Assembly: GCF_001048695.1 (NCBI RefSeq)
Contig: NZ_CVRB01000001.1
Coordinates: 1,612,001-1,676,000 of the forward strand
Length of the DNA: 64,000 nt
Source of the DNA: Neobacillus massiliamazoniensis
GTDB taxonomy: Bacteria > Bacillota > Bacilli > Bacillales > Cytobacillaceae
Direction of reading: 5' to 3'
In this document: positions 16,779-37,036 of the stretch, piece by piece
How the letters are laid out: each line of letters begins with the position of its first letter
Numbering within the stretch: position 1 is the first letter of the stretch
The notes under the pieces: model-generated
Seen by the model: the letters and a program-made list of their open reading frames with translations, nothing else
Told to the model about the DNA's origin: nothing
Database searches by the model: none
Made by a program: the position numbers and the translations under genes

Positions 16779-16805
16779 GTAAGGACTTATCACTTTGTCA
16801 TTCTT

Positions 16806-16916
16806 CTTATCTCGCAAATTACAAAATTTGCAGGAATTAGCACCTTTTCAATGGGCACGCCATTGAAGGTTGCTGAGGTGTCTTCGGGCCAGTCCCTCTA
16901 CCTCTCTTGATAAGAA
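16806..16916 (-). ncRNA. SAM-I (S-box) riboswitch aptamer
   Basis: On the minus strand the leader shows the S-box core in order: CTTATCAAGAGAGG, then GAGGGACTGGCCCG, AGCAACC, AAGGTGCTAATTCC and a closing GATAAG that pairs with the initial CTTATC to form P1. The terminator follows at once, then metI. It should switch the metI-metC-yitJ-metH operon off when S-adenosylmethionine is plentiful. Confidence 0.95.
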
Positions 16917-17052: not shown

Positions 17053-17160
17053 GAGGAACTATTTTGGGATGAAGCATATGTTCCTGGTAAACTGTTAGAT
17101 CCCAATATTCAAGTGGTATTGAAAAGATTAGAATTAAATGAAATTAACTTTATTTGTTGA
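17053..17160 (+). pseudogene. Possible gene remnant upstream of the EPS operon
   Basis: A short open stretch reads EELFWDEAYVPGKLLDPN and on to a TGA at 17158-17160. It looks like genuine coding sequence (hydrophobic pattern, a VPGKLLDPN turn) but has no start codon with a ribosome site, and a stop precedes it at 17044-17046. I do not recognise the parent protein. Its end overlaps the -35 box of the EPS promoter. Confidence 0.3.
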
Positions 17161-17185
17161 CTTGTTCTTTTTAAAGAACTACTAT
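17157..17185 (+). promoter_or_regulatory. EPS operon promoter with SinR-type operator between -35 and -10
   Basis: TTGACT (-35, 17157-17162) is followed after 17 bp by TACTAT (-10, 17180-17185). The spacer contains the inverted repeat GTTCTTT-TT-AAAGAAC (17164-17179). Both arms match the SinR half-site GTTCTYT perfectly. A bound SinR dimer would sit directly on the promoter. Confidence 0.8.
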
Positions 17186-17287: not shown

Positions 17288-17303
17288 GTTCTTTATTTAG
17301 AAC
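17288..17303 (+). promoter_or_regulatory. Second SinR-type operator in the EPS leader
   Basis: GTTCTTTATTTAGAAC has the same 7-2-7 layout as the upstream operator. The first arm is a perfect GTTCTYT; the second reads GTTCTAA on the other strand. It lies about 44 bases upstream of the first EPS gene and about 110 bp downstream of the promoter operator. Confidence 0.6.
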
Positions 17304-17346
17304 GTTTTTATGTGAATAATAAAATGACTTTTAAGAGGTGGATAAT

Positions 17347-18078
17347 ATGAGCTTCCATAATGCAAACAAAACGAATGCAAAGGATATTAATTTGAAAGAG
17401 TTATTTTACGTCATTAAAAAGAGGTTATGGATTGTTGTGGTCATAACATTCATTTCAACTGGACTGGGTACATACTATAGCTATTCACATAACACTTCCT
17501 TATATCAAGCTTCTTCAAGAATTATTATTGATACAACTCCAGACTATCGGAATACCCTTCAAGTAATCATTAAGGACTCAACCATATTAGGTAAGGTTGT
17601 GAAACAACTTGGATTACCTCAGTCACCAGAGGCGTTAGCTGGACAAATTACGGTTACAAGTATAGATAATACTCAAGTTGTCAGTATTGGTGTGACATAC
17701 ACGGACCCTAAACGTGCTGCAGATATTGCCAACACAACTGCTACCGTATTTAAGGCGGAGCTTCCAAATATTGTTAGTTCTAATAATGTTCGAGATGTTA
17801 GTATATTATCTAATGCTTCGGTAAACCCGGTACCCATTAATCACAATCAAAAAATGAAAATCGTGATTGCATTGGTGATTGGGGGCGTAATAGGCATTGG
17901 ACTAGCGTTTTTGTTAGATTCCCTTGATGATACATTAAGATCGAACAATGAAGTAGAGGAAATTTTGGGGTTGCCTGTTTTAGGAAGAGTTTCGCGAGCG
18001 AATAAAAAGAATTTGAAAAAGAAATATATTAAGCATGTAAATTTAGAAGCAAGAGGTGATACGGTTGGCTATAAATAA
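17347..18078 (+). CDS. epsA: EPS chain-length regulator / tyrosine-kinase modulator (EpsA/YveK type)
   Basis: Membrane adaptor of the polysaccharide export machinery, partner of the next protein. It has a Wzz domain: an N-terminal helix (about residues 27-45), an extracytoplasmic region, the Pro-rich NPVPINHN motif and a second helix (KIVIALVIGGVIGIGLAFLL). A cytoplasmic tail follows that should contact and activate the kinase. The ATG at 17347 is preferred because AAGAGGTGG lies upstream; an in-frame GTG at 17338 overlaps that ribosome site. It is the first gene of the EPS operon, and its end overlaps the next start. Confidence 0.9.
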   Translation: MSFHNANKTNAKDINLKELFYVIKKRLWIVVVITFISTGLGTYYSYSHNTSLYQASSRIIIDTTPDYRNTLQVIIKDSTILGKVVKQLGLPQSPEALAGQITVTSIDNTQVVSIGVTYTDPKRAADIANTTATVFKAELPNIVSSNNVRDVSILSNASVNPVPINHNQKMKIVIALVIGGVIGIGLAFLLDSLDDTLRSNNEVEEILGLPVLGRVSRANKKNLKKKYIKHVNLEARGDTVGYK

Positions 18079-18721
18079 GGGAAAGAGCAATATCCTAACA
18101 AAGAAACAACCATTAATAGCTTATTTTCACCCTGAGTCCATTATTTCTGAACAATATAGAATGATTCAGGCAAATATAAAATTTTCAATGACTGACAAAG
18201 GAAGCAAATCGTTTTTAATCACATCACCAAGCAAGGGGGAGGGCAAATCTACAACTGCTGCCAACTTAGCAGTCTCAATGGCCCAACAGAAAGAAAAGGT
18301 TTTACTAATAGATGCTAATTTAAGAAATCCTGGTCAACACTCCATATTTAAATTGCAAAATTCTATTGGATTAACGGATGTTCTAACCGGTAAATCACAT
18401 TTTTATGATGCTATTCAACATACAGAAATCGGTAGGTTAGATATATTAACAGGGGGTTCACTCACACATAACCCAGTAGAATTACTCTCATCACCTATGA
18501 TGAATGAATTATTTACCAACGCCTTAAAATCTTATGATGTCGTTTTAATTGATTCACACTCCGTGTTAGAGTTGACTGATACAAAACTATTAGCTAATCA
18601 ATGTAATGGGGTAGTATTAGTTATTCAAAGCGGAAAAACATTACAAGATTTAGCGTTTGAGGCGAAAAAAGTATTAGAATTCGCGAAGGCAAAGCTTATT
18701 GGTGTCATTGTCAATGAATGA
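18065..18721 (+). CDS. epsB: EPS BY-kinase-like ATPase (EpsB/CpsD type), lacking the tyrosine tail
   Basis: Cytoplasmic partner of EpsA. Walker A is SKGEGKSTTAAN, Walker A' is LLIDANLRNP and Walker B is VVLIDSH. The usual family sequence after Walker B is DTPPV; here it is DSHSV. The protein stops at IGVIVNE, where relatives continue into a C-terminal cluster of tyrosines that is autophosphorylated. That cluster is absent. TTG at 18065 is the better start, with AGAGGTG six bases upstream; GTG at 18056 lies inside that site. It has 218 residues. Confidence 0.88.
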   Translation: MAINKGKSNILTKKQPLIAYFHPESIISEQYRMIQANIKFSMTDKGSKSFLITSPSKGEGKSTTAANLAVSMAQQKEKVLLIDANLRNPGQHSIFKLQNSIGLTDVLTGKSHFYDAIQHTEIGRLDILTGGSLTHNPVELLSSPMMNELFTNALKSYDVVLIDSHSVLELTDTKLLANQCNGVVLVIQSGKTLQDLAFEAKKVLEFAKAKLIGVIVNE

Positions 18722-18789
18722 TTATCAATAAAAAATTTTAATTCAATTGTTCTTAATAGGGAACATAAGATGTTTTTTAAAGAATATAT

Positions 18790-18915
18790 AAAATTGGTGA
18801 TGTCTCCTCTCCGTTATCAATGGAGGCACTCGGTCATGCTGTGGGTTTAAGAGACCTTAGACGCAGGTCGTCAAGAGTGTGATGTGAGGGCGGGTTAGAT
18901 GCCCATTTACATAAA
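18790..18915 (+). ncRNA. EAR element (eps-associated RNA, epsC RNA)
   Basis: A GC-richer, structured stretch (GGTGATGTCTCCTCTCC, GGAGGCACTCGGTCATGC, then a GGGCGGGTTAGATGCCC hairpin) lies between the epsB-like and epsC-like genes. That is exactly where B. subtilis carries EAR, a processive antitermination RNA needed to read through terminators in the eps operon. The assignment rests on position, size and conserved-looking core; boundaries are approximate. Confidence 0.75.
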
Positions 18916-18982
18916 AAATGTTACTTATATGTCTTTTCCGGAAGGGATATAATTAACATTTTTTAAACAGAGGAGGGAATGT

Positions 18983-20803
18983 ATGACTTATCGTCAAAGA
19001 GTATCATTATTTATTTTTATTGATTCTTGTATTGTATTGACAGCCATTTTTTTTAGTCGTCTTTTAGTAGATGCAACAACGGATGTCATTACTTTTCCAA
19101 TCGTATTAAGTTCTATTGTAATATTAATAAGTCATCATATCTTTTCATTATTATTTCATCTATATAAAAAGGCCTGGGAGTATGCCAGTATTGGAGAATT
19201 GATTATTATTTTAAAAACTGTAACTTTTTCCATTCTAATAGCAGTAGCAACCCAACTGCTAATTACTCATAAAGTCCAATTTCGCTTACTAACCGTAACG
19301 TGGTTACTCAATATGTCTTTTATTGGTGGCTCGCGTTTTTGCTGGAGAATGTTCAGAGATTTCTTTCTTTATGAAGGAAAAAATAAAAAGAGAACATTGA
19401 TAGTAGGTGCTGGATCTGCCGGGACGATGGTGGCTAGACAGCTTCACAATAATCATGATGCGGACCTTTTACCGGTTGGTTTTATTGATGATGATGAAAA
19501 AAAGCAGAAATTGGATATTTTAGGGATTCCAGTGTTGGGTGGAATTGTTGAAATAGAGGATATTGTTAAAGAGTTTGATATCGACAATATCGTTATTGCC
19601 ATTCCTTCGCTTAGAAAAAGGGTGCTAAATACTATTTTTCAGGAATGTGCAAAAACAAATGCCAAAACACAAATTCTGCCGATGCTTGAAGATCTAATGA
19701 CGGGAAAGGTTTCTGTTCAGCAATTTAGGGATGTGCAGGTAGAGGATCTTTTAGGAAGGGATCCCGTTGAACTAGATATTGAAAGTATTTCTGAAAATAT
19801 TACCAATAAGGTTGTTTTAGTTACAGGAGCCGGTGGTTCAATTGGATCTGAAATATGCAGACAAATTTCTTGTTTTAATCCAAAGAAGCTTGTCTTATTG
19901 GGTCACGGTGAAAATAGCATCTACTCTATCGAGATGGAATTAAAAGAGACCTTTAAAAATGATGAAATTGATTTTGTACCAGTAATTGCAGATATCCAAG
20001 ATGAGAAGAAAATGATGTCCGTTATGAGTACATATCAACCAGAAACAGTCTACCATGCTGCTGCTCATAAGCATGTTCCTTTAATGGAAGCCAACCCTGA
20101 AGAAGCTGTAAAAAATAACATAATTGGAACGATGAATGTCGCTAAAGCATCTAGTTGGAATGAGGTGAAAACCTTTGTCATGATCTCAACCGATAAAGCA
20201 GTGAATCCAACAAGTGTAATGGGGGCGACGAAAAGACTTGCGGAAATGGTCATACAGCACCTGGATAAAGAAAGTGACACCAAATTTGTTGCCGTTCGCT
20301 TTGGAAATGTCTTGGGAAGCAGGGGGAGTGTCATTCCATTATTTAAACGACAAATTGAAAGGGGAGGACCTGTAACTGTTACTCACCCTGACATGATTCG
20401 CTACTTTATGACGATTCCCGAAGCATCAAGATTGGTTTTACAAGCCGGAGCACTTGCACAGGGTGGTGAGATTTTTGTTCTCGATATGGGAGATCCAGTG
20501 AAAATCATTGATTTAGCTAAAAATCTCATAAAATTCTCAGGTAATTCTATAGATGATATTGGCATTAAATACACTGGAATAAGACCTGGAGAAAAGCTTT
20601 TTGAAGAATTATTAAAGGAAGATGAGGTACATGAGCAACAGATTTATCCCAAGATTTATATTGGAAAAACTTCTAATCTTTTAATCCAAGAAATAGAAGA
20701 AATCATTTCAAATTACTCGATTTTAGATAAAGAAGAAATGAAAGAACGGCTAATCACCCTTGCAAACAATAAAGAGATTCCTAAATTATCAGTTTCTGTA
20801 TAA
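18983..20803 (+). CDS. epsC: UDP-sugar 4,6-dehydratase, EpsC/CapD type
   Basis: Membrane-linked nucleoside-diphosphate-sugar dehydratase, probably UDP-GlcNAc 4,6-dehydratase, starting a bacillosamine-type sugar. About four N-terminal helices are followed by a first Rossmann domain (VGAGSAGTMVARQ, about residue 139) and then the catalytic SDR domain (VTGAGGSIGSE). The active-site segment STDKAVNPTSVMGATKR carries Met where classical SDRs have Tyr, as is normal in this long subfamily. It has 606 residues. The start has AGAGGAGGGAATGT upstream. EAR lies immediately upstream, as in B. subtilis. Confidence 0.92.
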   Translation: MTYRQRVSLFIFIDSCIVLTAIFFSRLLVDATTDVITFPIVLSSIVILISHHIFSLLFHLYKKAWEYASIGELIIILKTVTFSILIAVATQLLITHKVQFRLLTVTWLLNMSFIGGSRFCWRMFRDFFLYEGKNKKRTLIVGAGSAGTMVARQLHNNHDADLLPVGFIDDDEKKQKLDILGIPVLGGIVEIEDIVKEFDIDNIVIAIPSLRKRVLNTIFQECAKTNAKTQILPMLEDLMTGKVSVQQFRDVQVEDLLGRDPVELDIESISENITNKVVLVTGAGGSIGSEICRQISCFNPKKLVLLGHGENSIYSIEMELKETFKNDEIDFVPVIADIQDEKKMMSVMSTYQPETVYHAAAHKHVPLMEANPEEAVKNNIIGTMNVAKASSWNEVKTFVMISTDKAVNPTSVMGATKRLAEMVIQHLDKESDTKFVAVRFGNVLGSRGSVIPLFKRQIERGGPVTVTHPDMIRYFMTIPEASRLVLQAGALAQGGEIFVLDMGDPVKIIDLAKNLIKFSGNSIDDIGIKYTGIRPGEKLFEELLKEDEVHEQQIYPKIYIGKTSNLLIQEIEEIISNYSILDKEEMKERLITLANNKEIPKLSVSV

Positions 20804-20841
20804 ATAAGATGGTGAAAATGAAACATTGGGTGGACGATAAA

Positions 20842-21996
20842 ATGCCAAAAAGAGTACTTTTCTGTGCAACTGTTGATATTCACTTGAAAGTCTTTCACTT
20901 ACCGTACTTAAAATGGTTTAAAGAACAAGGATGGGAAGTACATGTAGCTGCATCTGGAGATATGAAACTACCGTATGTAGATAAAAAAATCAATATTCCT
21001 ATTAAAAGATCTCCACTAAGCAGTAAAAATATTCAAGCATATCATGAATTAAAAATGATGATGGAGAAAAATCAATATCAGATTATTCATTGCCATACAC
21101 CAATGGGAGGGGTACTAACTCGTATTGCGGCAAGAAAAGCTAGAAAACAAGGAGCGAAGGTAATTTACACAGCCCATGGCTTTCACTTTTGTAAAGGGGC
21201 ACCATTTATTAATTGGGCTTTATATTATCCTATTGAGAAATTTTTAGCACGGTATACTGATTGTCTCATAACAATAAACGAAGAAGACTTTCAACTTGCA
21301 CGCAGTCATCACTTTAAAGCAGGGCTTATTTCGCATGTTCATGGAGTTGGAGTTGACACAGATTGTTACTTCCCTGTTGGTCCATTGGATAAATTCGTAT
21401 TACGAGTAGAACATGGATTTAATGAAGAGGATTTCTTAATGTTTTATGCAGCAGAATTTAATAAAAATAAAAACCAACCATTTCTGATCAAGTCGGTTGC
21501 CATGGTAAAGGACGAAATACCCAATGCCAAGCTTTTATTAGCTGGAGAAGGGCCAATGTTAGAAGAGTGCAGAAAGCTTGCAAGTAATCTTGGTGTAGAT
21601 AGAATAGTTCATTTTTTAGGATATCGGAATGATGTTGACGAGCTTCTAAAGATGAGTGATATTGCGGTTGCTTCTAGTTACCGAGAGGGGCTTCCTGTTA
21701 ATGTTATGGAAGCAATGGCAAGCGTCTTGCCGGTTATCGCTAGCGATAATCGTGGGCATCGAGAATTGATTGAAAATGGAAAAAATGGATGGTTGATTCA
21801 TTTGAATGATACAGAAGAAATGTCAGAAAAGCTAAAAATACTTGCCAAGGATGAAGAACTACGAAATAAATTTGGGATAACTTCGAGAAAGATCATCCAG
21901 GAGAAATACTCAATTGATAAAGTTTTAAGTGAAAACAGGAATCTGTATTCATTGTTTACAGAGGAAAGGGAGGATTTAGGGTGGGCAGTCCATTAA
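20842..21996 (+). CDS. epsD: Glycosyltransferase family 4, EpsD type
   Basis: GT-B glycosyltransferase adding a sugar to the lipid-linked repeat unit in the cytoplasm. It begins MPKRVLFCATVDIHLKVFHLPYLKWFKEQGWEVHVAASG, close to EpsD, and its C-terminal half carries the EX7E motif (YREGLPVNVMEAM). Starts at 20809 and 20818 are in frame, but 20842 has GGGTGGA eight bases upstream and matches the family's usual N-terminus. Its end overlaps the next gene by 16 bases. Confidence 0.88.
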   Translation: MPKRVLFCATVDIHLKVFHLPYLKWFKEQGWEVHVAASGDMKLPYVDKKINIPIKRSPLSSKNIQAYHELKMMMEKNQYQIIHCHTPMGGVLTRIAARKARKQGAKVIYTAHGFHFCKGAPFINWALYYPIEKFLARYTDCLITINEEDFQLARSHHFKAGLISHVHGVGVDTDCYFPVGPLDKFVLRVEHGFNEEDFLMFYAAEFNKNKNQPFLIKSVAMVKDEIPNAKLLLAGEGPMLEECRKLASNLGVDRIVHFLGYRNDVDELLKMSDIAVASSYREGLPVNVMEAMASVLPVIASDNRGHRELIENGKNGWLIHLNDTEEMSEKLKILAKDEELRNKFGITSRKIIQEKYSIDKVLSENRNLYSLFTEEREDLGWAVH

Positions 21997-23090
21997 GGGT
22001 ACTTCATGTTGTGGTAAATATGAACCGTGGAGGGGCAGAAACCCTTATTATGAATCTCTATCGGAATATAGACCGCTCGAAGATCCAATTCGACTTTCTA
22101 ACTTGTAAAGAAGGTGTCTTTGATTCAGAAATTAAAAACCTTGGTGGTCAAATCTATCAAATACCGTACATTTCTGATGTAGGACACTGGGAATATGTAA
22201 GAGAGTTAAAGAACTTTTTTATAGCAAATGCTCACTATAAAATTGTCCATTCTCATCTAGATAAAATGAGTGGCCTCGTTCTCCGTGCGGCCAAACAAGC
22301 AGGAATTCCCATTCGCATTTCACATAGCCATAACACAAGAAGTGAGGGTGGAAGAGTGGCAAGACTGTATAAGTGGTTTGTAGGGAATTATATTGTTCCC
22401 AATTCGACCCATTTAGTTGCCTGTTCAAGTGATGCTTCTAACTGGTTATTTAAAGAAAAAAAAACCTCAACCATGATTTTGAACAATGGGATTGACCCTG
22501 ATAAATTTATATTTTCTTCGGAAATCAGAAAGACAATAAGAAATGAATTAAACATTGAAGATACACAATTTGTTCTTGGGCATGTTGGTCGATTTAATGA
22601 TCAAAAGAATCATTTATTTTTGTTAGATGTTTTTTCACAGTTTAATTCCGAGGAAAAAAATTCTGTCCTAATTTTAGTTGGCGATGGTGACTTACGACCT
22701 GAAATTGAGAAGAAAATTAAGGATTTAAATTTGGAAGGTAAGGTGCAGTTGCTTGGAATTCGAAGCGATATTAATCATGTCCTTCAAGCATTTGACCTTT
22801 TTATTTTTCCCTCTTTACATGAAGGCTTACCTGTTTCTCTAGTCGAGGCGCAAGGTGCCGGATTACCTTGCGTAATATCTGACCATATTTCGCAGGAAGT
22901 AGATCTAGGGTTCAAACTGATTGAATATGCTTCACTTTCCAACCAAAGCAGCTGGTTAGAGAAAATAAAAAATATTAAGTCTACTCAAATAGATCGAAAT
23001 GGGGTTTTAGACCTTCTGTTAAAAAGCGGATTTAATATAAGAAACACTGCAGGCTTTTTAGAGGACTATTACTTTTCGTTATCGAGGTGA
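21981..23090 (+). CDS. Glycosyltransferase family 4, EpsF type
   Basis: A 369-residue GT-B enzyme. The N-terminus (RVLHVVVNMNRGGAETLIMN) carries the acceptor-domain glycine motif and the C-terminal domain the EX7E motif (HEGLPVSLVEA). It starts at GTG behind GGGAGGATTTAGG inside the end of epsD. It is a close paralogue of the protein at 25157, which shares the RGGAETLIMN(L/I)YRNID opening. Sugar donor unknown. Confidence 0.88.
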   Translation: MGSPLRVLHVVVNMNRGGAETLIMNLYRNIDRSKIQFDFLTCKEGVFDSEIKNLGGQIYQIPYISDVGHWEYVRELKNFFIANAHYKIVHSHLDKMSGLVLRAAKQAGIPIRISHSHNTRSEGGRVARLYKWFVGNYIVPNSTHLVACSSDASNWLFKEKKTSTMILNNGIDPDKFIFSSEIRKTIRNELNIEDTQFVLGHVGRFNDQKNHLFLLDVFSQFNSEEKNSVLILVGDGDLRPEIEKKIKDLNLEGKVQLLGIRSDINHVLQAFDLFIFPSLHEGLPVSLVEAQGAGLPCVISDHISQEVDLGFKLIEYASLSNQSSWLEKIKNIKSTQIDRNGVLDLLLKSGFNIRNTAGFLEDYYFSLSR

Positions 23091-23096
23091 ATGTAA

Positions 23097-23993
23097 TTGA
23101 AATTATTAACCGTTTTTACCCCAACTTATAATAGGGCCTATTGCCTCGATACCTGTTATAAAAGTCTCTTGAATCAAACTTGTAAAGATTTTGTTTGGCT
23201 AATTATTGATGATGGGTCTACAGATTCAACAAAAGAATTGGTTAATCATTGGATAACAGAAAATCAAATTGAAATTAGATATCACTGGCAAGAAAATCAA
23301 GGGATGCATGGTGCTCATAATACCGCCTATGAACTTATCGATACCGAATTAAATGTTTGTATTGACTCCGATGACTCAATGCCAGAAGATTCAGTTGAAA
23401 AAATTGTTCATTTCTGGAGAGAGTATGGAAACATTACTTATAGTGGAATAATTGGACTTGATGCTGACAATAACAATAAGGTAATTGGCACAAAACTACC
23501 GGAAAAACTCAAAAGCTCAACGCTGTTTAACCTATACAATAAATATGGTGTATTAGGAGATAAAAAGCTTGTATATCGTACTGAATTAACAAAACTATAT
23601 CCATATCCAATCTTTGAAAATGAAAAATATGTGGGATTGGCGTACAAGTACTATATGCTCGATCAACAATACGAAATGCTACTGATGAATGAAGAATTAT
23701 GTACTGTTGAATATCTTCCTGATGGTTCATCACTTAATATGTTTAATCAGTATCGGAAAAATCCAAAAGGTTTTGCGTTTTATCGTAAAGAATTAATGCA
23801 ATTACCATTTGCGAGCATTTCATTTAAATTTCGCCAAGCCATTCATTATGTATCCAGTAGTTTTCTAAATAGGAATTGGCGGTTTTTAAGTGAGACTCCA
23901 CTAAAAGGTCTTACGTTTTTAGCCATACCATTAGGTTTCTTATTATATTTATATGTCCAACAAAAAAAGGGGCAACTAAAGTTAAGGTCTTAA
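23097..23993 (+). CDS. Glycosyltransferase family 2
   Basis: GT-A enzyme, 298 residues. It opens LLTVFTPTYNRAYCLDTCYKSLLNQTC, then the nucleotide-binding IIDDGSTDSTKELV and a metal-binding D-x-D equivalent in CIDSDDSMPED. A hydrophobic C-terminal segment (FLAIPLGFLLYLYV) may tether it to the membrane. It starts at TTG with GAGGTGAATGTAA upstream. A long perfect hairpin begins within its last codons. Confidence 0.85.
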   Translation: MKLLTVFTPTYNRAYCLDTCYKSLLNQTCKDFVWLIIDDGSTDSTKELVNHWITENQIEIRYHWQENQGMHGAHNTAYELIDTELNVCIDSDDSMPEDSVEKIVHFWREYGNITYSGIIGLDADNNNKVIGTKLPEKLKSSTLFNLYNKYGVLGDKKLVYRTELTKLYPYPIFENEKYVGLAYKYYMLDQQYEMLLMNEELCTVEYLPDGSSLNMFNQYRKNPKGFAFYRKELMQLPFASISFKFRQAIHYVSSSFLNRNWRFLSETPLKGLTFLAIPLGFLLYLYVQQKKGQLKLRS

Positions 23994-24003
23994 CTTTAGT
24001 TGC
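23968..24003 (+). terminator. Long perfect hairpin inside the EPS operon
   Basis: A perfect 17-bp stem (GGGCAACTAAAGTTAAG with CTTAACTTTAGTTGCCC) has only a two-base GT between the arms. It overlaps the stop of the preceding GT2 gene. The run after it is only CCCTTTG, so it is a weak intrinsic terminator by itself, but it could pause or stop polymerase that has not been modified by the upstream EAR element. Confidence 0.6.
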
Positions 24004-24059
24004 CCTTTGCGTTATTAATAAAGATTTAGAAAAAGGATGATCTGAAAGGAAAATACCGG

Positions 24060-25142
24060 ATGACTATTCTCTGGATTAACCTAGCCACCGTTTTTATGTT
24101 GGCCTATTTTTCAAGATACTTCGCTGTTGTGACATTTTCTTCTAATTCCATTGCTATCGTTAAACCAAATAAATTGTTTATTTGTGGTTCTTTACTATGT
24201 TTAATTTTAGTTTCAGGGCTTAGAGCAAATATTGGGGATACCGGAGCTTACCGCCATGCCTATATACTTAATAATTTTACCTGGGATTACGTTAAGTCGC
24301 AAAAGGATATTGGCTTTGGAATTCTTCAAATGATCTTAAAAAATTTTACAAATGATCCACAATTAATGATTTTTATTACGGCCTTCATTACCAACGTGCT
24401 AATTATTGGAGTATTTTATAAGTATTCTAGAATGATTGAATTGAGCATTTTTGTATATATTACCAGTGGTTTTTTTATCACTTCAATGAATGGGATACGG
24501 CAATGCCTTGCAGCAGCGATTGTTTTTGCAGCAACAAAGTTCCTATTTGATGGAAACTGGAAGAGATACTTTTTAGTTGTTCTCATTGCTACATCTATAC
24601 ATGAAACAGCGCTCATTCTTATTCCTATTTATTTCATTGTTAGAAGAAAAGCATGGACACGAGCGACCTTTTTCCTTATTTCAATAGCTATTATTGTTGT
24701 GCTTGGATTCAATCAGTTTTCAACTGTTTTGTTTGCTGCCATTCAGGATACGCAATATGGAGGATATAAAGATTTTGCTGAGGGTGGGGCAAATGTTATT
24801 AGAGTTGCAGTAGAAGGAGCACCGTTACTCATTGCTTTCTTTGGAAGAGAAAAACTAAAAACGATTATGCCCAATAGTGATTATATTGTAAACATGGCTG
24901 TTCTTAGTTTAGTCTTTATGATTATTTCAACGCAAAACTGGATATTCGCCAGGTTTTCCATTTATTTTACTCTTTACCAATTTATTTTAATTTCATGGGT
25001 GGTTAAGCTTTTTAAAGAAAGCAATCAGAGGTTAATTTATTTCACGATCTTAATTTGTTATTTGATTTATCATTATTATGATAGTGTTATTACTCTGAAT
25101 ATCCTGTATAGAAGTGAATTTTTAGATCAAATTTTTCGATAA
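24060..25142 (+). CDS. epsG: EPS polymerase-like membrane protein, EpsG family
   Basis: A 360-residue protein with about ten hydrophobic helices. The segment GLRANIGDTGAYRHAY and later NGIRQCLAAAIVF match the EpsG family of Wzy-like polymerases, which join lipid-linked repeat units outside the membrane. Its presence implies a Wzy-dependent pathway. The start has GAAAGGAAAATACCGG upstream. A hairpin lies in the short gap before it. Confidence 0.88.
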   Translation: MTILWINLATVFMLAYFSRYFAVVTFSSNSIAIVKPNKLFICGSLLCLILVSGLRANIGDTGAYRHAYILNNFTWDYVKSQKDIGFGILQMILKNFTNDPQLMIFITAFITNVLIIGVFYKYSRMIELSIFVYITSGFFITSMNGIRQCLAAAIVFAATKFLFDGNWKRYFLVVLIATSIHETALILIPIYFIVRRKAWTRATFFLISIAIIVVLGFNQFSTVLFAAIQDTQYGGYKDFAEGGANVIRVAVEGAPLLIAFFGREKLKTIMPNSDYIVNMAVLSLVFMIISTQNWIFARFSIYFTLYQFILISWVVKLFKESNQRLIYFTILICYLIYHYYDSVITLNILYRSEFLDQIFR

Positions 25143-25156
25143 AGGGGAGGGAACAA

Positions 25157-26335
25157 ATGGATAAAAAGAGCAATCTGAAGAGAGTCCTGCATATCGTTAG
25201 CACGATGGATCGAGGTGGGGCAGAGACACTAATTATGAATATCTATAGAAATATAGATAAAACAAAAATCCAGTTTGATTTTGTTTCCCATTCATCGAAA
25301 AAGGGAGATTATGATGATGAAATTATCTCCTTAGGTGGAAAAATTCATTATATTCCGAGCTTAGGAGAGTTAGGACCCATTAAATATATAAAAGAATTGA
25401 AAAGAGTAATGTCTTCGGCACATTACATAGCGGTTCATTCGCACACGGATTTCCAGAGTGGCTTTCCCGCTTTAGCCGCAAAACTTTGTGGAATCAAAAA
25501 AAGAATCTGTCATTCTCATAGTACTAATTGGCCGAAAAATAATCATATGATAAATAAGTTTATCCTAAAGTTTTTACAAATATTAATTAAAGTTTCAGCA
25601 ACAAATTATTGCAGCTGCAGTAATGAAGCAGCTGCGTTTTTGTTCAGTCAAAAGCTGGTGGATCATGGCAAAGTGAAAATCTTAAATAATGGAATTGATC
25701 TAAACTCATTCTTTGAAACTTACGATGGTAGAGATCATTTGCTATCTGAATTGGGGCTACCAAAAGATGTGAAAATAATTGGGCATGTCGGACGTTTTTC
25801 TAAATCTAAGAATCAAAGCTTTATCCTAAAAATATTGAAAAAAATTCTCGAGACTGATCCTAACTATTTTGTATGTTTAGTGGGAGATGGTCCATTAAAA
25901 AAACAAGTTGAAAGAGAAGCGGAAGCACTTGGTGTATTAAATCATATTAAGTTTTTAGGCGTTCGAACGGATATCCCAAGATTAATGAAAGCATTTGATG
26001 TGTTTCTCTTTCCCTCTCTATTTGAAGGGTTTGGAATTGTAACCTTAGAAGCTCAATGTGCCGGTACTCCTTGTGTGGCATCAGCAGCGGTTCCAAGGTC
26101 AACGGACATGGGGCTCGGTTTAATTACCTATATTAGTTTGGAAGAGGATTTAAATACCTGGTCAAAATATATTAATAAAGCCGCTTTTTCCAACAGACCT
26201 GACAATGAAACAATAAAGAAACATTTCAAAAATAAAGGATTCAGTATGGAGGAAAATGTCCCTAAGTGGTTATCGTTGTATCTAAATGATAAGCAAGAAT
26301 CCCTTTCTCATTTATTAGATCTAATAAGGAGTTAA
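25157..26335 (+). CDS. Glycosyltransferase family 4 (EpsF-like paralogue)
   Basis: A 392-residue GT-B enzyme. The opening RVLHIVSTMDRGGAETLIMNIYRNID closely matches the gene at 21981, so the pair probably arose by duplication. The C-terminal domain has GHVGRFSKSKNQ and the EX7E motif FEGFGIVTLEA. GGGGAGGGAACAA precedes the ATG. It probably adds a different sugar from its paralogue. Confidence 0.86.
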   Translation: MDKKSNLKRVLHIVSTMDRGGAETLIMNIYRNIDKTKIQFDFVSHSSKKGDYDDEIISLGGKIHYIPSLGELGPIKYIKELKRVMSSAHYIAVHSHTDFQSGFPALAAKLCGIKKRICHSHSTNWPKNNHMINKFILKFLQILIKVSATNYCSCSNEAAAFLFSQKLVDHGKVKILNNGIDLNSFFETYDGRDHLLSELGLPKDVKIIGHVGRFSKSKNQSFILKILKKILETDPNYFVCLVGDGPLKKQVEREAEALGVLNHIKFLGVRTDIPRLMKAFDVFLFPSLFEGFGIVTLEAQCAGTPCVASAAVPRSTDMGLGLITYISLEEDLNTWSKYINKAAFSNRPDNETIKKHFKNKGFSMEENVPKWLSLYLNDKQESLSHLLDLIRS

Positions 26336-26340
26336 TTGGA

Positions 26341-27537
26341 GTGAAAAAACAAATACTTTTTGTAACACAATACCTCCAAACAGGTGGTATAGAGAAAAGC
26401 TTATTAACACTACTTTCCGATATTGATTACGATCAATACGACGTAGACTTGCTTCTATTTGATCACAGTGGTGTCCTGTTCAAATTGATTCCACCACAAG
26501 TAAATATTCTTCCACCACTGTTTGAAACTTTTTCTACTCCTTTGTCACAAGCAGCCTTAGAATTAATAAAAAAAAGAAAATATCGACTGTTGATTGGTAA
26601 AATCCTTGCAGCTGGTTTAGCACGATTTTCATCAGGTGTTGGAACGGGGATCAGATGGGGAGTTTATCGTAATATCTTGCCTAAACAAATAAAACACTAC
26701 GATGTAGCAATCAGCTATATCGATTTTTTTTGTAATTACTACGTGACAGAAAAAGTTAGTGCCAAACGGAAAATTGTCTACAATCATATGGATTATGCAT
26801 ACAGTGAGAACAATGGCTGGCTTTGTCCGAACCTTGAGAGGAAGAGCTTTTCCGAGTGTGATTATATTGTTACGGTAGCTGAAACTGCCAAGGAATCATT
26901 AGAGTCTTTCTTTCCAGAGTACGCAAATAAAATTCAAGTCATTCATAATCGAGTGTCACCAAATACGGTTCGGGCAATGGCAAATGAAACGAATATAGAC
27001 AAAGGCTTTAAGGAAAGTAAAAATATTAAAATCGTTACAGTAGCTAGACTCGTTGATGAAAAAGGAGTCTTTTTTGCGTTAGAGGCATGTAAAATTCTAA
27101 TAGACCAAGGATATGCCATATCCTGGTTTATGATTGGAAACGGACCATTGTTCCATGTATTGAAATTGAAGTCCGTAGAGTGGGGAATTGATAAAAATTT
27201 TATTTTACTTGGTGAGAAAGAAAATCCATATCCTTATATGAAGGAATGTGATATATATGTTCAACCATCGAAAACGGAAGCCCATTGTGTGGCAGTAGAA
27301 GAGGCAATTGCTCTTTCATGCCCTATCGTTACAACAGATATACCTTCATTCCGAACTCAAATTCAGGAAGGGGAGACAGGAATGATCGTACATGCTGACC
27401 CAAAGGCATTAGCAGAAGGAATAAAAAAATTAATCGAGTCAAAAGTGTTACGTAATAGACTATCTGTAAACTTAAAGAATTTAAATGGCAGAAATCAAGA
27501 GGAATTAGAGAAGTTTTTAAAATTAATATCAGCATGA
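26341..27537 (+). CDS. Glycosyltransferase family 4
   Basis: A 398-residue GT-B enzyme of a different subgroup, opening ILFVTQYLQTGGIEKSLLTLLSDIDYD. It shares this shape with the genes at 43111 and 44329. The C-terminal domain shows VARLVDEKG and the EX7E-type motif TEAHCVAVEEA. It starts at GTG five bases after the previous stop, with AAGGAGTTAATTGGA upstream, so translation is probably coupled. Confidence 0.85.
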   Translation: MKKQILFVTQYLQTGGIEKSLLTLLSDIDYDQYDVDLLLFDHSGVLFKLIPPQVNILPPLFETFSTPLSQAALELIKKRKYRLLIGKILAAGLARFSSGVGTGIRWGVYRNILPKQIKHYDVAISYIDFFCNYYVTEKVSAKRKIVYNHMDYAYSENNGWLCPNLERKSFSECDYIVTVAETAKESLESFFPEYANKIQVIHNRVSPNTVRAMANETNIDKGFKESKNIKIVTVARLVDEKGVFFALEACKILIDQGYAISWFMIGNGPLFHVLKLKSVEWGIDKNFILLGEKENPYPYMKECDIYVQPSKTEAHCVAVEEAIALSCPIVTTDIPSFRTQIQEGETGMIVHADPKALAEGIKKLIESKVLRNRLSVNLKNLNGRNQEELEKFLKLISA

Positions 27538-27580
27538 AGGAAAAACTAAAAATATTAATAGGAAGAAAGGGGTGTATGAA

Positions 27581-28654
27581 TTGTCTATTCTAGTAACGGG
27601 AGGAGCAGGGTATATAGGGAGCCACACCATTGTTGAACTTTTAAATAAAGGGTATGACGTCATCGTAATTGATAATTTTTCTAATAGTCACCCAGAAGCA
27701 TTGAGACGTGTGAGTGAAATTACCGGTGAAGAATTCAAGATATATAACATAGATATTCTAGATCGACTTGGGCTTGAAAAAGTTTTTTCAGAAAATAGTA
27801 TCGAGGCAGTTATACATTTCGCAGGCTTAAAGGCTGTAGGAGAATCGGTAGAGGTACCTCTGCACTATTACAAGAATAATATTACTGGTACTCTTAATCT
27901 CTGCGAAATGATGCAAAAATACAATGTAAAGAGATTGGTATTTAGTTCATCGGCAACTGTATATGGAAATCCTAAAACAGTTCCGATTTCTGAGGATTTT
28001 CCTCTAAATGCAACTAATCCATATGGTCGGACAAAATTGATGATAGAAGAAATTCTTAGAGATCTCTATGTATCAGATAACCAATGGAGCATAACCATTT
28101 TACGGTATTTTAATCCAATTGGTGCACATGTTAGTGGCATAATTGGCGAAGATCCCACTGGTATTCCCAACAATTTGTTGCCATTTATTTCGAAGGTGGC
28201 AATTGGTGAATTAAAGGAAGTAAAGGTTTTTGGAAACCATTATCCTACAAAGGACGGAACAGGGATAAGAGACTATATACATGTTGTTGATCTCGCACTG
28301 GGACATTTACATGCTCTTGAAAACAATCTGAAAACAAAAGGAATTAGCACCTATAATCTTGGTACTGGAAAAGGATATAGTGTATTAGAAATAATTAGCG
28401 CTTTTGAAAAGGCAAGTGGAAGAAAGATTCCCTACACGATTACGGAGCAAAGGCCTGGTGATGTAGCTGTTTGTTTTGCTAATCCAGTAAAAGCAAAAAG
28501 AGAGCTGCAATGGACCGTGGAAAGAGGAATAGAGGAAATGGTTGCTGATTCTTGGCGCTGGCAATGCCAAAACCCTAGCGGATACAGAGAAGAAAATAAA
28601 ATCTTAACAGTTACAGGAAATCCCATGCAGAGCAATGGGGATTTTTCTTTTTAA
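27581..28654 (+). CDS. galE: UDP-glucose 4-epimerase
   Basis: Interconverts UDP-glucose and UDP-galactose (or the N-acetyl forms), supplying donors to the transferases around it. The NAD-binding motif is TGGAGYIGSH at the N-terminus; the catalytic triad is SSSATVYG with YGRTK. The TTG at 27581 gives the usual MSILVTGGAGYIGSH start and has AAGGGGTG upstream; GTG at 27572 is less likely. It has 357 residues, slightly longer than many GalE proteins. A T-tailed hairpin overlaps its last codons. Confidence 0.92.
   Translation: MSILVTGGAGYIGSHTIVELLNKGYDVIVIDNFSNSHPEALRRVSEITGEEFKIYNIDILDRLGLEKVFSENSIEAVIHFAGLKAVGESVEVPLHYYKNNITGTLNLCEMMQKYNVKRLVFSSSATVYGNPKTVPISEDFPLNATNPYGRTKLMIEEILRDLYVSDNQWSITILRYFNPIGAHVSGIIGEDPTGIPNNLLPFISKVAIGELKEVKVFGNHYPTKDGTGIRDYIHVVDLALGHLHALENNLKTKGISTYNLGTGKGYSVLEIISAFEKASGRKIPYTITEQRPGDVAVCFANPVKAKRELQWTVERGIEEMVADSWRWQCQNPSGYREENKILTVTGNPMQSNGDFSF
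28617..28652 (+). terminator. Intrinsic terminator overlapping the end of galE
   Basis: AAATCCCAT pairs with ATGGGGATTT (one bulged G) and is followed by TTTCTTTTT. It is a convincing intrinsic terminator in the middle of the EPS operon, inside the last codons of galE. Downstream genes would need read-through, consistent with EAR-dependent antitermination. Confidence 0.7.
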
Positions 28655-28667
28655 AGGGGATTTAAAC

Positions 28668-28820
28668 ATGAACATTTCCGACAAATTGACTCAGCAAAAA
28701 TTATTGGAAATCTTAGTCTCATCTTATATAAAGGGCCAAGAAAATAAAAATATTCAAACAATAGAGATATTAGAAGATATGAAGCAGAAATTTTTATCAA
28801 TCATGAACACAAATAGGTAA
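28668..28820 (+). CDS. Small helical protein of unknown function in the EPS operon
   Basis: A 50-residue protein starting MNISDKLTQQKLLEIL and ending SIMNTNR. It has an AAAGGGGATTTAAAC ribosome site in front of ATG 28668. It should form two amphipathic helices and has no membrane segment. It does not resemble SinI or another EPS component that I know. It lies directly behind the galE terminator and ahead of the epsL-like gene. Confidence 0.55.
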   Translation: MNISDKLTQQKLLEILVSSYIKGQENKNIQTIEILEDMKQKFLSIMNTNR

Positions 28821-28881
28821 GAAATTTACGATGAAGAACCTGAAATGGTATCTCCATTAGAGGGGATGAGGTGATGAGGAA

Positions 28882-29505
28882 ATGAAGCGAATTTTTGATC
28901 TTGTTTTTTCTATTTTCTTATTAGTATGCTTTTCTCCAATTATAGTTGGCATAGCTGTTATGGTCAGGTACAAATTAGGAAAACCAATAATATTTAAACA
29001 ACAACGTCCCGGTTTAAATGAAAAACCTTTTTATATTTATAAATTTCGCACTATGACTGACGAACGTGGGAGTAACGGAGAGTTATTACCTGATTATGCA
29101 CGCTTAACATCGTTTGGCAGATTTCTAAGAAAATATAGTTTAGATGAGACAGTTCAATTAGTGAATGTTGTAAAAGGAGATTTAAGTATTGTTGGACCAA
29201 GGCCACTTCTTATGGACTATCTGCCATTATACAGTTCAGAACAATCTAAACGTCACCAGGTTAAACCTGGAATGACTGGTTGGGCACAGGTAAATGGGCG
29301 AAATTCCATTTCATGGGAGGAAAAGTTTCAATTGGATGTATGGTATGTTGAAAATCAAAGTTTCTTTCTAGATTTGAAGATTTTATATCTTACCTTTATT
29401 AAAGTAATGAAATCTGAAGGTATTCAAAATGGAGAGAATGTTACCATGCCGGTTTTTAAAGGGAACTCAAATGAAAAAAATTCAGGGAAATCTAGTGCTT
29501 TTTAG
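28882..29505 (+). CDS. epsL: Initiating sugar-phosphate transferase, EpsL type
   Basis: Bacterial sugar transferase that places the first sugar phosphate on undecaprenyl phosphate. One N-terminal membrane helix (LVFSIFLLVCFSPIIVGIAV) precedes the catalytic domain with YKFRTM, KYSLDETVQLVNV, SIVGPRPLL and PGMTGWAQVNGRN, all standard. It has 207 residues. The C-terminal ~15 residues are low-complexity and polar. GATGAGGAA precedes the ATG. In B. subtilis the EpsL substrate is thought to be a bacillosamine-type UDP-sugar, which fits the EpsC and EpsN homologues here. Confidence 0.92.
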   Translation: MKRIFDLVFSIFLLVCFSPIIVGIAVMVRYKLGKPIIFKQQRPGLNEKPFYIYKFRTMTDERGSNGELLPDYARLTSFGRFLRKYSLDETVQLVNVVKGDLSIVGPRPLLMDYLPLYSSEQSKRHQVKPGMTGWAQVNGRNSISWEEKFQLDVWYVENQSFFLDLKILYLTFIKVMKSEGIQNGENVTMPVFKGNSNEKNSGKSSAF

Positions 29506-29536
29506 CTTAGTTTTCTTTAAGTGGTGAGGTATTGAG

Positions 29537-30598
29537 ATGCTTCAATTTAAAATTATTGAAAAACAGGATAGTTGGAAAAACACATTAAAGAATTTTAATA
29601 ATATAGATTGCTATTACTCATATGAATATGGGAATTCATTTGCAAAGAAAGAAGGAGGCAGACTGTTTGCTGCCTATTATGAAGATCATGATACGAAAAT
29701 ATTTTATCCGTATATAAAAAGGAGAATTCCTCATATTGAGGAAGAACTTTTTGATATTGTAACACCTTATGGCTACGGTGGTCCTGTAATTAGCGGAACT
29801 TATACGAATGTATTTATGATGAAATTTCATGAATTATTCAGTTCATATTGCAGATTACATAACATCATAACAGAAACAATTAGATTTCATCCTTTATATC
29901 AAAATTATAAAATTTGTAGAAATTTCTGGGATATTGAATATATTAGAAAAACAACCGCAGTTGATTTAACACAATCACTAGAAGAAATAAGAAATAATTA
30001 TAGTGAAATGACCAAAAGAAATATTAAGAAGGCCAAAATGAATAATCTTACGTGTTTTATTGCTGAAAATAGCGAGGAAAATATTAGAATCTTCATAGAT
30101 CTCTATAAAGAAACGATGGACCGGAATCATGCGGCAAGTTATTACTATTTCGATGAGGATACCTTTTTTGAGCAAGTAAAGGAAACAGATATTAGTGAAA
30201 CCTTATTACTATTCACCAAAACGAATAATGAAATTATTGCTGGCGTAATGGTTTTGGTTGGTAAGGAATTTTCTCATTACCATCTCGGTGCATCGAAAAC
30301 GGACTATTTACATTTTCGACCTAACAATTTAATGTTTGATTTTATGATTGAATCCTGTAAGTCAAAGGGGTCAAGTGTTTTACACTTAGGCGGAGGTTAT
30401 CAAGAAAATGATGGCCTTTTTAAATTTAAAGCTTCCTTCACTAATGATCATTATTTCAAATACTATATTGGCAAAAAAGTCCATAACCTAGTTCGGTACA
30501 ATGAAGTCATTGAAGGTTTAAAAGAACAGTATGAATTGAATGAACGTTATTTTCCTATCTATCGTGGTCAAATGGAAAAAAGAAAAATTCGTACTTAA
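29537..30598 (+). CDS. FemAB/GNAT-fold acyl- or aminoacyltransferase
   Basis: A 353-residue soluble protein. The stretch YGYGGPVISG, an acceptor-binding region ending in NYSEMTKRNIKKAKMNN, and a second half with AGVMVLVGKEFSHYHLGAS then FDFMIESCKSKGSSVLHLGGGY match the FemAB-like GNAT superfamily (PF13480 type). Such enzymes acylate or aminoacylate amino groups. It lies between the EpsL-like and EpsN-like genes, where B. subtilis has the acetyltransferase epsM. It may therefore acylate the amino sugar made by EpsC and EpsN; this is inference. Confidence 0.75.
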   Translation: MLQFKIIEKQDSWKNTLKNFNNIDCYYSYEYGNSFAKKEGGRLFAAYYEDHDTKIFYPYIKRRIPHIEEELFDIVTPYGYGGPVISGTYTNVFMMKFHELFSSYCRLHNIITETIRFHPLYQNYKICRNFWDIEYIRKTTAVDLTQSLEEIRNNYSEMTKRNIKKAKMNNLTCFIAENSEENIRIFIDLYKETMDRNHAASYYYFDEDTFFEQVKETDISETLLLFTKTNNEIIAGVMVLVGKEFSHYHLGASKTDYLHFRPNNLMFDFMIESCKSKGSSVLHLGGGYQENDGLFKFKASFTNDHYFKYYIGKKVHNLVRYNEVIEGLKEQYELNERYFPIYRGQMEKRKIRT

Positions 30599-30614
30599 GA
30601 AAGGGGTGAAAGAT

Positions 30615-31787
30615 ATGATGAAGAATCGAATTTTTTTATCTCCTCCACATTTGAGTGGAAATGAACAAAAATATATAAATGAAGCTTTTGAAACAAATTG
30701 GGTTGCCCCATTAGGACCAAATATAGATGCTTTTGAAAAGGAAATAGCTAATTATGTAGGAGCCAATGAAGCTGTAGCAGTTAGTTCTGGAACTGCGGCG
30801 ATTCATTTGGCTCTTTGTTTATTGGATGTAAAAAAAGGAGATACAGTCTTTTGCTCCAGCCTTACCTTTATTGCAAGTGCAAATCCTATTATTTATCAGG
30901 GAGCAGAACCTGTGTTTATCGATTCAGAACCCGAAACATGGAATATGTCACCACAAGCACTCGAACGGGCATTTCAGGATGGAAGTCATGAAAATAAACT
31001 GCCTAAAGCTGTCATTGTTGTGAACCTATATGGCCAAAGTGCAAAAATGGATGAAATCATGTCGATTTGTAGCCGTTACAATGTTCCCATCATTGAAGAT
31101 GCTGCCGAATCTTTTGGAGGAACCTATAAGGGAAAAGCGAGCGGTACATTAGGGTTGTTTGGGATATATTCATTTAATGGAAACAAAATCATTACAACCT
31201 CTGGAGGAGGAATGATCATTTCAAATGATCAGGAGGCAATGAACAAGGCTAGATTTTTAGCAACGCAAGCTAGAGATCCAGCCCCTTATTATCAGCATAG
31301 TAATATAGGATTTAACTATCGAATGAGTAATGTATTGGCTGGGATTGGCAGAGGCCAACTGGAGGTTTTACCAAAAAGAGTGGCAGAAAGAAGACGGATT
31401 TTTGAACAGTACTACAAAGAATTAGCGAATCTACCAGGAATATATTTTATGGCAGAACTCCAAAATACTCAGTCTAATCGGTGGCTTACAGCCCTAACCA
31501 TCAATGAAAAAGAAGCAGGTGTAACGGCAGGGGAAGTGTTAGTTGCATTAACAAAAGAAAATATTGAAGCGCGTCCTGTTTGGAAACCCCTTCATTTACA
31601 GCCAATCTTTGATGGATTACGCTATTATCCACATGAAAAAAATGAAAGTGTTTCGGACCGTTTATTCCAACAAGGGCTCTGTCTACCATCTGGGTCTAAT
31701 ATGGCTTTCAATGACCAAATGAGGGTCATTAAATGTATAAAGGAATCCATAAATTCACACATGTGTAAAAGGGAGCTCCAAGCCTAA
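30615..31787 (+). CDS. epsN: PLP-dependent sugar aminotransferase, EpsN / DegT-DnrJ-EryC1 family
   Basis: Transfers an amino group to the 4-keto sugar produced by the EpsC homologue. Motifs include NWVAPLGPN, the cofactor-binding SSGTAAIHLAL, IIEDAAESFGG and the PLP lysine in SFNGNKIITTSGGGM. It has 390 residues. ATGATG at 30615 follows AAAGGGGTGAAAGAT; an upstream in-frame start at 30540 lies inside the previous gene without a ribosome site. It matches EpsN (PglE-like) well. Confidence 0.92.
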   Translation: MMKNRIFLSPPHLSGNEQKYINEAFETNWVAPLGPNIDAFEKEIANYVGANEAVAVSSGTAAIHLALCLLDVKKGDTVFCSSLTFIASANPIIYQGAEPVFIDSEPETWNMSPQALERAFQDGSHENKLPKAVIVVNLYGQSAKMDEIMSICSRYNVPIIEDAAESFGGTYKGKASGTLGLFGIYSFNGNKIITTSGGGMIISNDQEAMNKARFLATQARDPAPYYQHSNIGFNYRMSNVLAGIGRGQLEVLPKRVAERRRIFEQYYKELANLPGIYFMAELQNTQSNRWLTALTINEKEAGVTAGEVLVALTKENIEARPVWKPLHLQPIFDGLRYYPHEKNESVSDRLFQQGLCLPSGSNMAFNDQMRVIKCIKESINSHMCKRELQA

Positions 31788-31815
31788 AAAATCTAGGAAA
31801 AAATGGGGTATTTAA

Positions 31816-32154
31816 ATGATCGGGAAAACTATTTATCAAATTCGAAGGAAAAGGGGATACACACTATCTGAACTAGCTGAACGGACCCGCATATCAAAAT
31901 CGTATTTAAGTAATATTGAACGAAATATTAACATAAATCCATCAATAGAAGTCATTAAAAAAATAGCAAAAGTGTTGGAGGTTGATTTAAAAACATTAAT
32001 TGGAACAATTGATGGAACACAAAACGATCTTGACTCGGACTGGATTGATTTTGTAAATGAACTAAAAGAATCAGGCATTGAAAAAGAGCTGCTCCATGAG
32101 TATAAACCGTTAATCGAATTTATCAAGTGGAAAAATGATAGTAAGGGAAAATAA
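31816..32154 (+). CDS. SinR/SlrR-type transcriptional regulator
   Basis: A 112-residue regulator aligned throughout with SinR. The N-terminal helix-turn-helix (MIGKTIYQIRRKRGYTLSELAERTRISKSYLSNIERN) is followed by NPSIEVIKKIAKVLEV. The C-terminal DSDWIDFVNELKESGIEKELLHEY is the SinR dimerisation and SinI-binding type segment. It is encoded inside the EPS operon, unlike B. subtilis, where sinR is elsewhere. Two SinR-type operators lie upstream of this operon, and two more lie in the window, so an autoregulatory loop is plausible. Whether it acts like SinR or like SlrR cannot be told from sequence alone. Confidence 0.88.
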   Translation: MIGKTIYQIRRKRGYTLSELAERTRISKSYLSNIERNININPSIEVIKKIAKVLEVDLKTLIGTIDGTQNDLDSDWIDFVNELKESGIEKELLHEYKPLIEFIKWKNDSKGK

Positions 32155-32160
32155 ATAGGT

Positions 32161-33234: not shown

Positions 33235-33264
33235 GACTTCTTCACAAGAAAGGAGAAGTTTTTT
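33235..33264 (+). terminator. Hairpin containing the next gene's ribosome binding site
   Basis: ACTTCTTC pairs with GGAGAAGT (one wobble) and is followed by TTTTTT. The 3' arm contains the AGGAG ribosome site of the gene that starts at 33267. The element could terminate transcription, hide the ribosome site, or both. Confidence 0.6.
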
Positions 33265-33266
33265 CT

Positions 33267-34869: not shown

Positions 34870-34887
34870 AGGAACGGGAGTTTTTTT

Positions 34888-36854: not shown

Positions 36855-36890
36855 ATAATTTTGAAAAAGTATAGTTAGGAAGATTTGAAT

Positions 36891-36977
36891 ATGAGGAAGG
36901 TAAATTTATTATTTGTATTTGATTCTTTAGTTGTGAGCAGGGCAGAAATAGATAAATTACATTTCATTCCTTGTTAG
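36891..36977 (+). pseudogene. Remnant of a glycosyltransferase family 4 N-terminus
   Basis: ATG at 36891 opens 28 codons reading MRKVNLLFVFDSLVVSRAE and then TAG. The first 19 residues match the start of the intact transferase at 43111 (MKKRKLLFVIDSLVVAGAE) at 13 positions, including the LLFV-DSLVV core. Nothing of the remaining enzyme is left before the next gene. It is the stump of a deleted paralogue. Confidence 0.65.
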
Positions 36978-37036
36978 ACTCTAATAAAATCTCAGTGGAA
37001 TTTTGGAATTCACTTTAATTTGGGGGTGATGATGTT

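Follow-up and report, generated by a model that had tools for sequence, protein, structure and literature searches.

An exopolysaccharide (EPS) operon in the window, the 64,000-nucleotide stretch of Neobacillus massiliamazoniensis DNA analyzed here, has a predicted promoter whose 17-bp spacer (17163-17179) is almost entirely a SinR-type palindrome, O1, which takes 16 of the 17 bp and leaves a single T at 17163. We consider it probable that O1 fills the spacer of a sigma-A promoter, where a SinR-family repressor, likely the paralogue encoded within the operon itself, binds and excludes RNA polymerase. The palindrome, its register, its conservation, a second palindrome in the leader (O2) and the linked SinR paralogue are all established from sequence and its comparison. 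The textbook account of SinR as a biofilm switch that controls exopolysaccharide comes from B. subtilis; what is new here is a layout that recurs across the order, differs from that of B. subtilis, has a second operator and points to the in-operon paralogue as regulator. In titles and abstract openings, a body of literature that leaves subscription papers mostly outside, we did not find a SinR operator inside an EPS promoter spacer.

The half-sites of O1, at 17164-17170 on the plus strand and 17173-17179 on the minus strand, both match the SinR consensus GTTCTYT and form an inverted pair. A sequence-only reading of this DNA had described the 17-bp gap between TTGACT and TACTAT as nearly all SinR palindrome, and direct reading indeed bears this out to the letter, with only the one extra T. 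Its identification of the site as SinR-type is supported by the inverted GTTCTYT arms, the 16-bp geometry shared with epsA of the B. subtilis group, and the like palindromes before SipW and camelysin/TasA-like genes. The 16-mer has a single exact occurrence in the 5.6-Mb genome. The promoter scores 9 of 12 consensus matches, its -10 hexamer being among the weakest of the compared set, and the 3-kb region contains 11 pairs this good where shuffled sequence gives 12.0, so that taken by itself the promoter is unremarkable. Nor is GTTCT-N6-AGAAC enriched over the whole genome (11 sites versus 12 for the reversed control). It is register and conservation in the compared sequences, rather than motif or promoter alone, that raise O1 above chance.

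Table 1. Features of the EPS operon and its control region in the window (positions in the window).
Feature	Position	Strand	Basis
Predicted -35 hexamer TTGACT, EPS operon promoter	17157..17162	+	sequence and relatives
O1, SinR-type palindrome GTTCTTTTTAAAGAAC, fills promoter spacer	17164..17179	+	sequence and column information in 23 loci
Predicted -10 hexamer TACTAT, weak here	17180..17185	+	sequence and relatives
O2, second SinR-type palindrome GTTCTTTATTTAGAAC, in predicted leader	17288..17303	+	sequence and recurrence in relatives
epsA-like chain-length determinant, Wzz domain; likely start ATG 17347	17338..18078	+	
epsB-like tyrosine autokinase	18056..18721	+	TIGR01007 above cut-off
epsC RNA (EAR)	18795..18905	+	Rfam RF01735, 111.7 bits vs gathering score 42
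EPS biosynthesis genes between epsB and SinR-like gene	18983..31787	+	some of these ORFs searched
In-operon SinR-family paralogue, 112 aa, Asn33, candidate cognate repressor	31816..32154	+	predicted same transcript

Conservation was clear within the genus, of which 61 genomes were sampled. A DNA search of these genomes with a 345-bp query gave 13 short matches besides the window, eight of them spanning 17157-17181, and the pattern TTGACNNGTTCTN6AGAAC had 21 matches in 21 of the 61 genomes, compared with three for the reversed control pattern. Independently of promoter sequence, 30 upstream regions were chosen by EpsA protein similarity; 25 belong to close homologues (E<=1.1e-55), and dropping one from the promoter counts (L077, whose contig ends 98 bp upstream of the gene) leaves 24 testable loci. 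The palindrome stands in spacer register at 23 of these (21 by the strict call), compared with means of 0.075 and 0.000 (strict) in shuffled upstream regions. The -35 hexamer among the 23 loci is TTGACT in 12, TTGACA in 10 and TTGACC in one, and the -10 hexamers include TAATAT (8), TAAAAT (5), TATAAT (3) and TATTAT (3). Operator columns average 1.69 bits, with flanks at 0.56 and 0.52, and mean pairwise identity is 88% in the operator and 35% in the -60 to -10 upstream stretch; the module call (at least 8/10 arm letters and at least 4/6 matches to TTGACA) somewhat raises the identity, information and -35 figures.

The EpsA-clade locus L097 (G032) has no spacer module despite a SinR-family neighbor. 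At this locus GTTCTTAATAAAGGAT lies directly after a TATAAT, and the operator has possibly shifted to the start site. Among the five more distant EpsA loci (~40%), L099 and L100 carry a palindrome in a putative 18-bp spacer; L101-L103, outside the close EpsA clade (three of the 30 EpsA-selected loci), have no palindrome within 260 bp upstream. A search with EpsA among the named relatives yielded one distant locus. Three genomes (L056, L069 and L070 of G009, G051 and G052) show a second operon order: the in-operon SinR paralogue sits 40-950 bp upstream of an EpsA-like gene, and the module, another 4-5 kb upstream, precedes a different gene.

Beyond the genus, the signal was weak by raw count in the class (12 module matches in 11 of 398 genomes versus 7 in the control). 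By eye, the canonical form is seen in 11 of these 12 matches, among them the window's own, and these stand ahead of polysaccharide, kinase-like or SinR-like genes; L207 lies in coding DNA. The order-wide search of 397 genomes returned 69 matches, spread over 65 genomes and 26 of 135 genera, with eight for the reversed-pattern control. The conservation of the operator in relatives, which the earlier reading proposed to check, is seen both at the genus EpsA loci and in the order. Of the 69 order loci, 62 were newly read: an EpsA homologue follows within 400 bp in 47, two (L270 and L271) were judged false and removed before the O2 counts, and the other 13, judged by eye from their first residues, precede some polysaccharide-type genes and some of no assigned identity. 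These pattern matches inside the core promoter in about a fifth of the genera suggest that the textbook B. subtilis promoter is not typical; core-promoter operators mostly stand before EpsA-type genes, often with a leader operator, and the window's genus has the SinR paralogue in the EPS operon. At one further locus, L200 (G230), the spacer module lies directly before a Tyr33 SinR-family gene that is followed by an EpsA-like gene (by eye), an apparent case of autoregulation. According to the gene tables, two Priestia plasmids carry both EpsA-like and SinR-like genes.

To set this layout against the known one, we took a B. subtilis-type genus, five sampled genomes of which encode a SinR sharing 93-98% identity with the B. 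subtilis protein; 44 of its genomes were searched with EpsA and 20 epsA upstream regions were compared. In 18 of the 20 loci GTTCTYTAAARAGAAC is present, always 43 bp upstream of a TATAAT, and an extra GTTCTTT half-site lies 62 bp upstream of the palindrome where the palindrome exists; the other two loci have no such palindrome. The TATAAT, read from the motif alone, is the predicted working -10, yet no consensus -35 was found 16-18 bp from it (best 4/6), nor any -35-like hexamer at the position equivalent to that in the window. The order sample includes 10 genomes from this genus, and the spacer module is absent from all of them. The gene divergent from epsA at L180, the sole one tested, passes the NCBIfam SlrR cut-off (278.6 versus 250), confirming the locus type there.

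The two layouts share a 16-bp inverted GTTCTYT pair (GTTCTCTAAAGAGAAC and close variants) upstream of an EpsA-type EPS operon, but the palindrome lies upstream of the core promoter in the B. subtilis group, whereas in the window O1 lies between -35 and -10, filling the spacer of a promoter whose -35 is good, with O2 further downstream, beyond that promoter. The likeness to B. subtilis epsA repression drawn in the sequence-only reading therefore stands for the type of palindrome and not for its position. In B. subtilis, RemA is reported to activate eps from sites overlapping those of SinR, which acts as an anti-activator (PMC4238804, seen in excerpt). Since the operator layouts differ, different mechanisms are predicted: the layout in the window predicts direct occlusion of the core promoter rather than displacement of RemA. 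The B. subtilis layout may be the derived one. The kinB SinR-2 site also has SinR half-sites overlapping a core promoter; by the excerpted account, SinR is needed there for positive stringent control, likely via a tandem site that overlaps both -35 and -10 (PMC5733473). Unlike that poorly matching tandem site with its reported positive role, the site in the window is a near-perfect palindrome that fills the spacer.

The protein encoded at 31816, taken earlier for a SinR homologue, does have a SinR-type helix-turn-helix (Pfam HTH_3, 59.5 bits; best solved match SinR 1b0n/3zkc, E 6.3e-23), but it is not the SinR orthologue: it falls in a separate clade (100/99), and the canonical sinR, to whose product it is 42% identical in the search alignment, lies elsewhere in the genome at C2:195816, where its neighbor on the opposite strand is sinI. 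The two proteins are alike in length (112 and 111 aa) and nearly identical in the recognition helix; they differ in that the 31816 protein has Asn33 rather than Ser33, a weak SinI-type domain and a place inside the EPS operon instead of beside sinI. Its SinI-type C-terminal domain scores 13.7 bits against a Pfam cut-off of 31.4 (54 bits for the canonical SinR of this genome), which hints that SinI may not be the releasing signal. The alternative assignment to SlrR was rejected on a score of 73.9 bits against the NCBIfam cut-off of 250 and on separation in the tree. Like SlrR of B. subtilis it is a SinR paralogue linked to the eps operon; SlrR, unlike it, has ~152 aa and Lys33 and is divergent from epsA, whereas the 31816 gene is co-directional and within the operon. 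On C2 of this genome (L002 1501-1824 (+) and 1966-2274 (-)), sinR and sinI are convergent, with sinI downstream. The gene order in B. subtilis, sinIR, is unlike this convergent pair.

In a tree of 43 SinR-family proteins, which took in 20 of the 29 in-operon clade members (those passing a motif filter) and six of 23 SlrR rows, the in-operon proteins fall in a single clade (20 rows, 100/99) that is sister to the canonical SinR rows (98/91), and B. subtilis SlrR (100/100) and the divergently placed genes are separate from it. At residue 33, all 29 in-operon clade members have Asn, the 23 SlrR rows have Lys, and the divergent genes encode either Tyr or Asn; eight Ser33 rows were labeled canonical by this residue, and the tree places all of them on one branch (93/82). 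This recognition-helix residue (Ser in SinR, Lys in SlrR) has been proposed to explain the different specificity of SlrR (PMC3163267, in part).

The in-operon clade is present in 21 of the 25 EpsA-clade genomes. In 20 of these, read by hand, its gene shares contig and strand with epsA, and in G040 the two are on different contigs; the remaining four genomes have a SinR-family gene divergent from epsA. Of the 21 genomes with the exact module, 18 also have the clade; of the 40 that lack the module, 11 do (Fisher p 2.7e-5, from hand counts and ignoring descent). Module and clade belong to one operon type, so this linkage is not proof of binding. Taken together, these sequence comparisons make the 31816 paralogue the best candidate repressor and the likely partner of O1.

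The gene for this paralogue starts 28 bp after the preceding ORF and 14.5 kb downstream of O1, and the short gap makes cotranscription over 14.5 kb plausible. The genes in between encode a sugar-nucleotide epimerase/dehydratase, glycosyltransferases, an EpsG-family protein and a LegC-like aminotransferase. The epsC RNA (EAR) has an antitermination role; it plausibly supports a long operon and helps cotranscription. Four plus-strand terminator-like sites between epsA and the 31816 gene (26700, 28621, 29727 and 30392) count against cotranscription; such sites number 10 in 18000-37000, compared with 9.8 in shuffles. On the far side of the promoter, a SAM riboswitch (16804-16916, minus strand) precedes a gene for a Cys/Met-metabolism PLP enzyme, transcribed divergently to the EPS operon. 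By eye, what seems to be a homologue of this gene, also divergent, stands upstream of the module in L053, L056, L058, L069, L070 and L073, a recurrence that may mean that the EPS operon sits at a conserved insertion site.

We infer that the hexamers form a working promoter, that a protein binds O1 and represses it, and that the repressor gene is cotranscribed. From its position, a SinR-family repressor on O1 would cover about -29 to -14 and shut out polymerase. O2 could strengthen repression, either as a roadblock or through a tetramer bridging O1 and O2. With the repressor cotranscribed, the operon would make its own repressor, a negative feedback that would close a self-limiting loop. Its good -35 would make an activator unnecessary, in contrast to epsA of B. 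subtilis. SinR is reported to have about a tenfold preference for an inverted repeat over tandem or single sites (Colledge 2011, PMC3163267, in excerpt). The sequence-only reading was right about the site and probably also about the mode of action. If binding is as proposed, commitment to the biofilm would run through direct promoter occlusion and local feedback rather than RemA displacement, and operator position could predict the control mode from sequence. Speculatively, much of the order may have a built-in EPS switch that B. subtilis has lost, in which a residue-33-tuned SinR paralogue in or beside the operon acts at O1 and bridges to O2 as an activator-free, self-limiting on/off device; the RemA/anti-activator scheme would then be a derived exception.

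O2, which the earlier reading does not mention, stands after the promoter and before the start codon, 124 bp downstream of O1. When the stretch 30-170 bp downstream of O1 was searched for palindromes with at least 9/10 arm letters, an O2-like site was found in 28 of 41 loci (shuffle mean 0.24), a set that includes several close relatives and was assembled from 25 loci chosen for their EpsA similarity and 16 for an exact pattern match. A new set of 60 loci repeated the result, with such a site in 41 (shuffle mean 0.40) and in none of the 60 over an upstream span of similar size. O2 is not as symmetric as O1, with a strong left arm and a last position that is C in 45 of 69 and T in 21 of 69. It may act through a DNA loop, in which a SinR-family tetramer joins O1 and O2 on one helical face, an extension of the proposed occlusion at O1. 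The enrichment of O2 in both locus sets argues for such a loop, and the excerpted text of PMC3163267 holds that the SinR tetramer could loop DNA, with looping at eps and yqxM proposed from the structure. O1-O2 distances were phased at 10.5 bp in the first set (R 0.44, n=28, p~0.005; each distance counted once, n=23, p~0.024), and at a similar phase in the new set (R 0.32, n=41, p~0.017). However, with repeated distances removed the helical signal was lost, both in the new set (p 0.29, n=29) and in the combined set (p 0.18, n=43), the peak is broad (10.5-11.5 bp), the loci are related, and the distance falls anywhere from 60 to 145 bp. Looping between O1 and O2 is thus possible, if doubtful.

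The identity of the repressor is the point on which another reading carries real, though lesser, weight: the canonical SinR, released by SinI, might be the main repressor at O1 and O2, with the in-operon paralogue a modifier, for example through mixed oligomers such as SlrR forms in B. subtilis. The genome does have adjoining sinR and sinI and hence a Ser33 protein that could be the binder, the like palindromes before SipW and camelysin/TasA-like genes are of the B. subtilis SinR target type, and in G404 the module is 36 kb from sinR on the same contig. We nevertheless regard this as possible rather than probable, since a SinR-family match (E<=1e-9) is found in 60 of the 61 genus genomes and the exact module in just 21, and the module tracks the in-operon clade, a weak argument because both belong to one operon type and a minority of the other SinR-family matches were read. 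Spacer-binding activators exist, and MerR-type promoters have long spacers. That O1 is an activator site of MerR-like kind, at which a SinR-family protein switches the promoter on, would agree with the positive role of SinR reported at kinB (PMC5733473, in part), but it is improbable given a 17-bp spacer here, good -35 hexamers in relatives and an O2 in the leader that suits repression. As for a chance palindrome in an AT-rich spacer, the motif alone is unenriched in the genome and promoter-like pairs are at shuffle level; the in-register conservation across genera nonetheless rules this out for practical purposes. Occlusion at O1 by a SinR-family repressor, likely the in-operon paralogue, is the reading that we retain.

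Palindromes of the O1 form occur elsewhere in the genome upstream of a SipW gene and, as a pair of sites 50 bp apart, of a camelysin/TasA-like gene, so that, with the EpsA/EpsB operon, SinR-type sites stand at promoters of matrix genes. SipW is above the NCBIfam cut-off and camelysin above that of Pfam; the NCBIfam TasA score is below (89.4 versus 450). In B. subtilis, tapA-sipW-tasA is described as a SinR target (PMC5733473, in excerpt), to which the SipW and camelysin/TasA-like sites correspond. At L022 (C1:1502922 and 1502990), two GTTC-N8-GAAC palindromes 68 bp apart lie upstream of a short Flp-pilin-like gene, which is just below the Pfam cut-off, and pili may belong to the same regulon. 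The remaining GTTCT-N6-AGAAC sites of the genome are before genes without a biofilm link or inside coding DNA, which fits the absence of overall enrichment. Two further palindromes are seen in the window itself. At 50756-50771, GTTCTATTTAAAGAAC lies directly downstream of a minus-strand TATAAT (TTGTGG-17-TATAAT, by eye) and 62 bp upstream of a metallophosphoesterase gene (49831-50694, minus strand), possibly a SinR-type operator over the start site. At 55088-55102, a shorter palindrome with a 5-bp center, GTTCTTTTAAAGAAC, lies ~30 bp upstream of a gene for an 886-aa 5'-nucleotidase-like protein.
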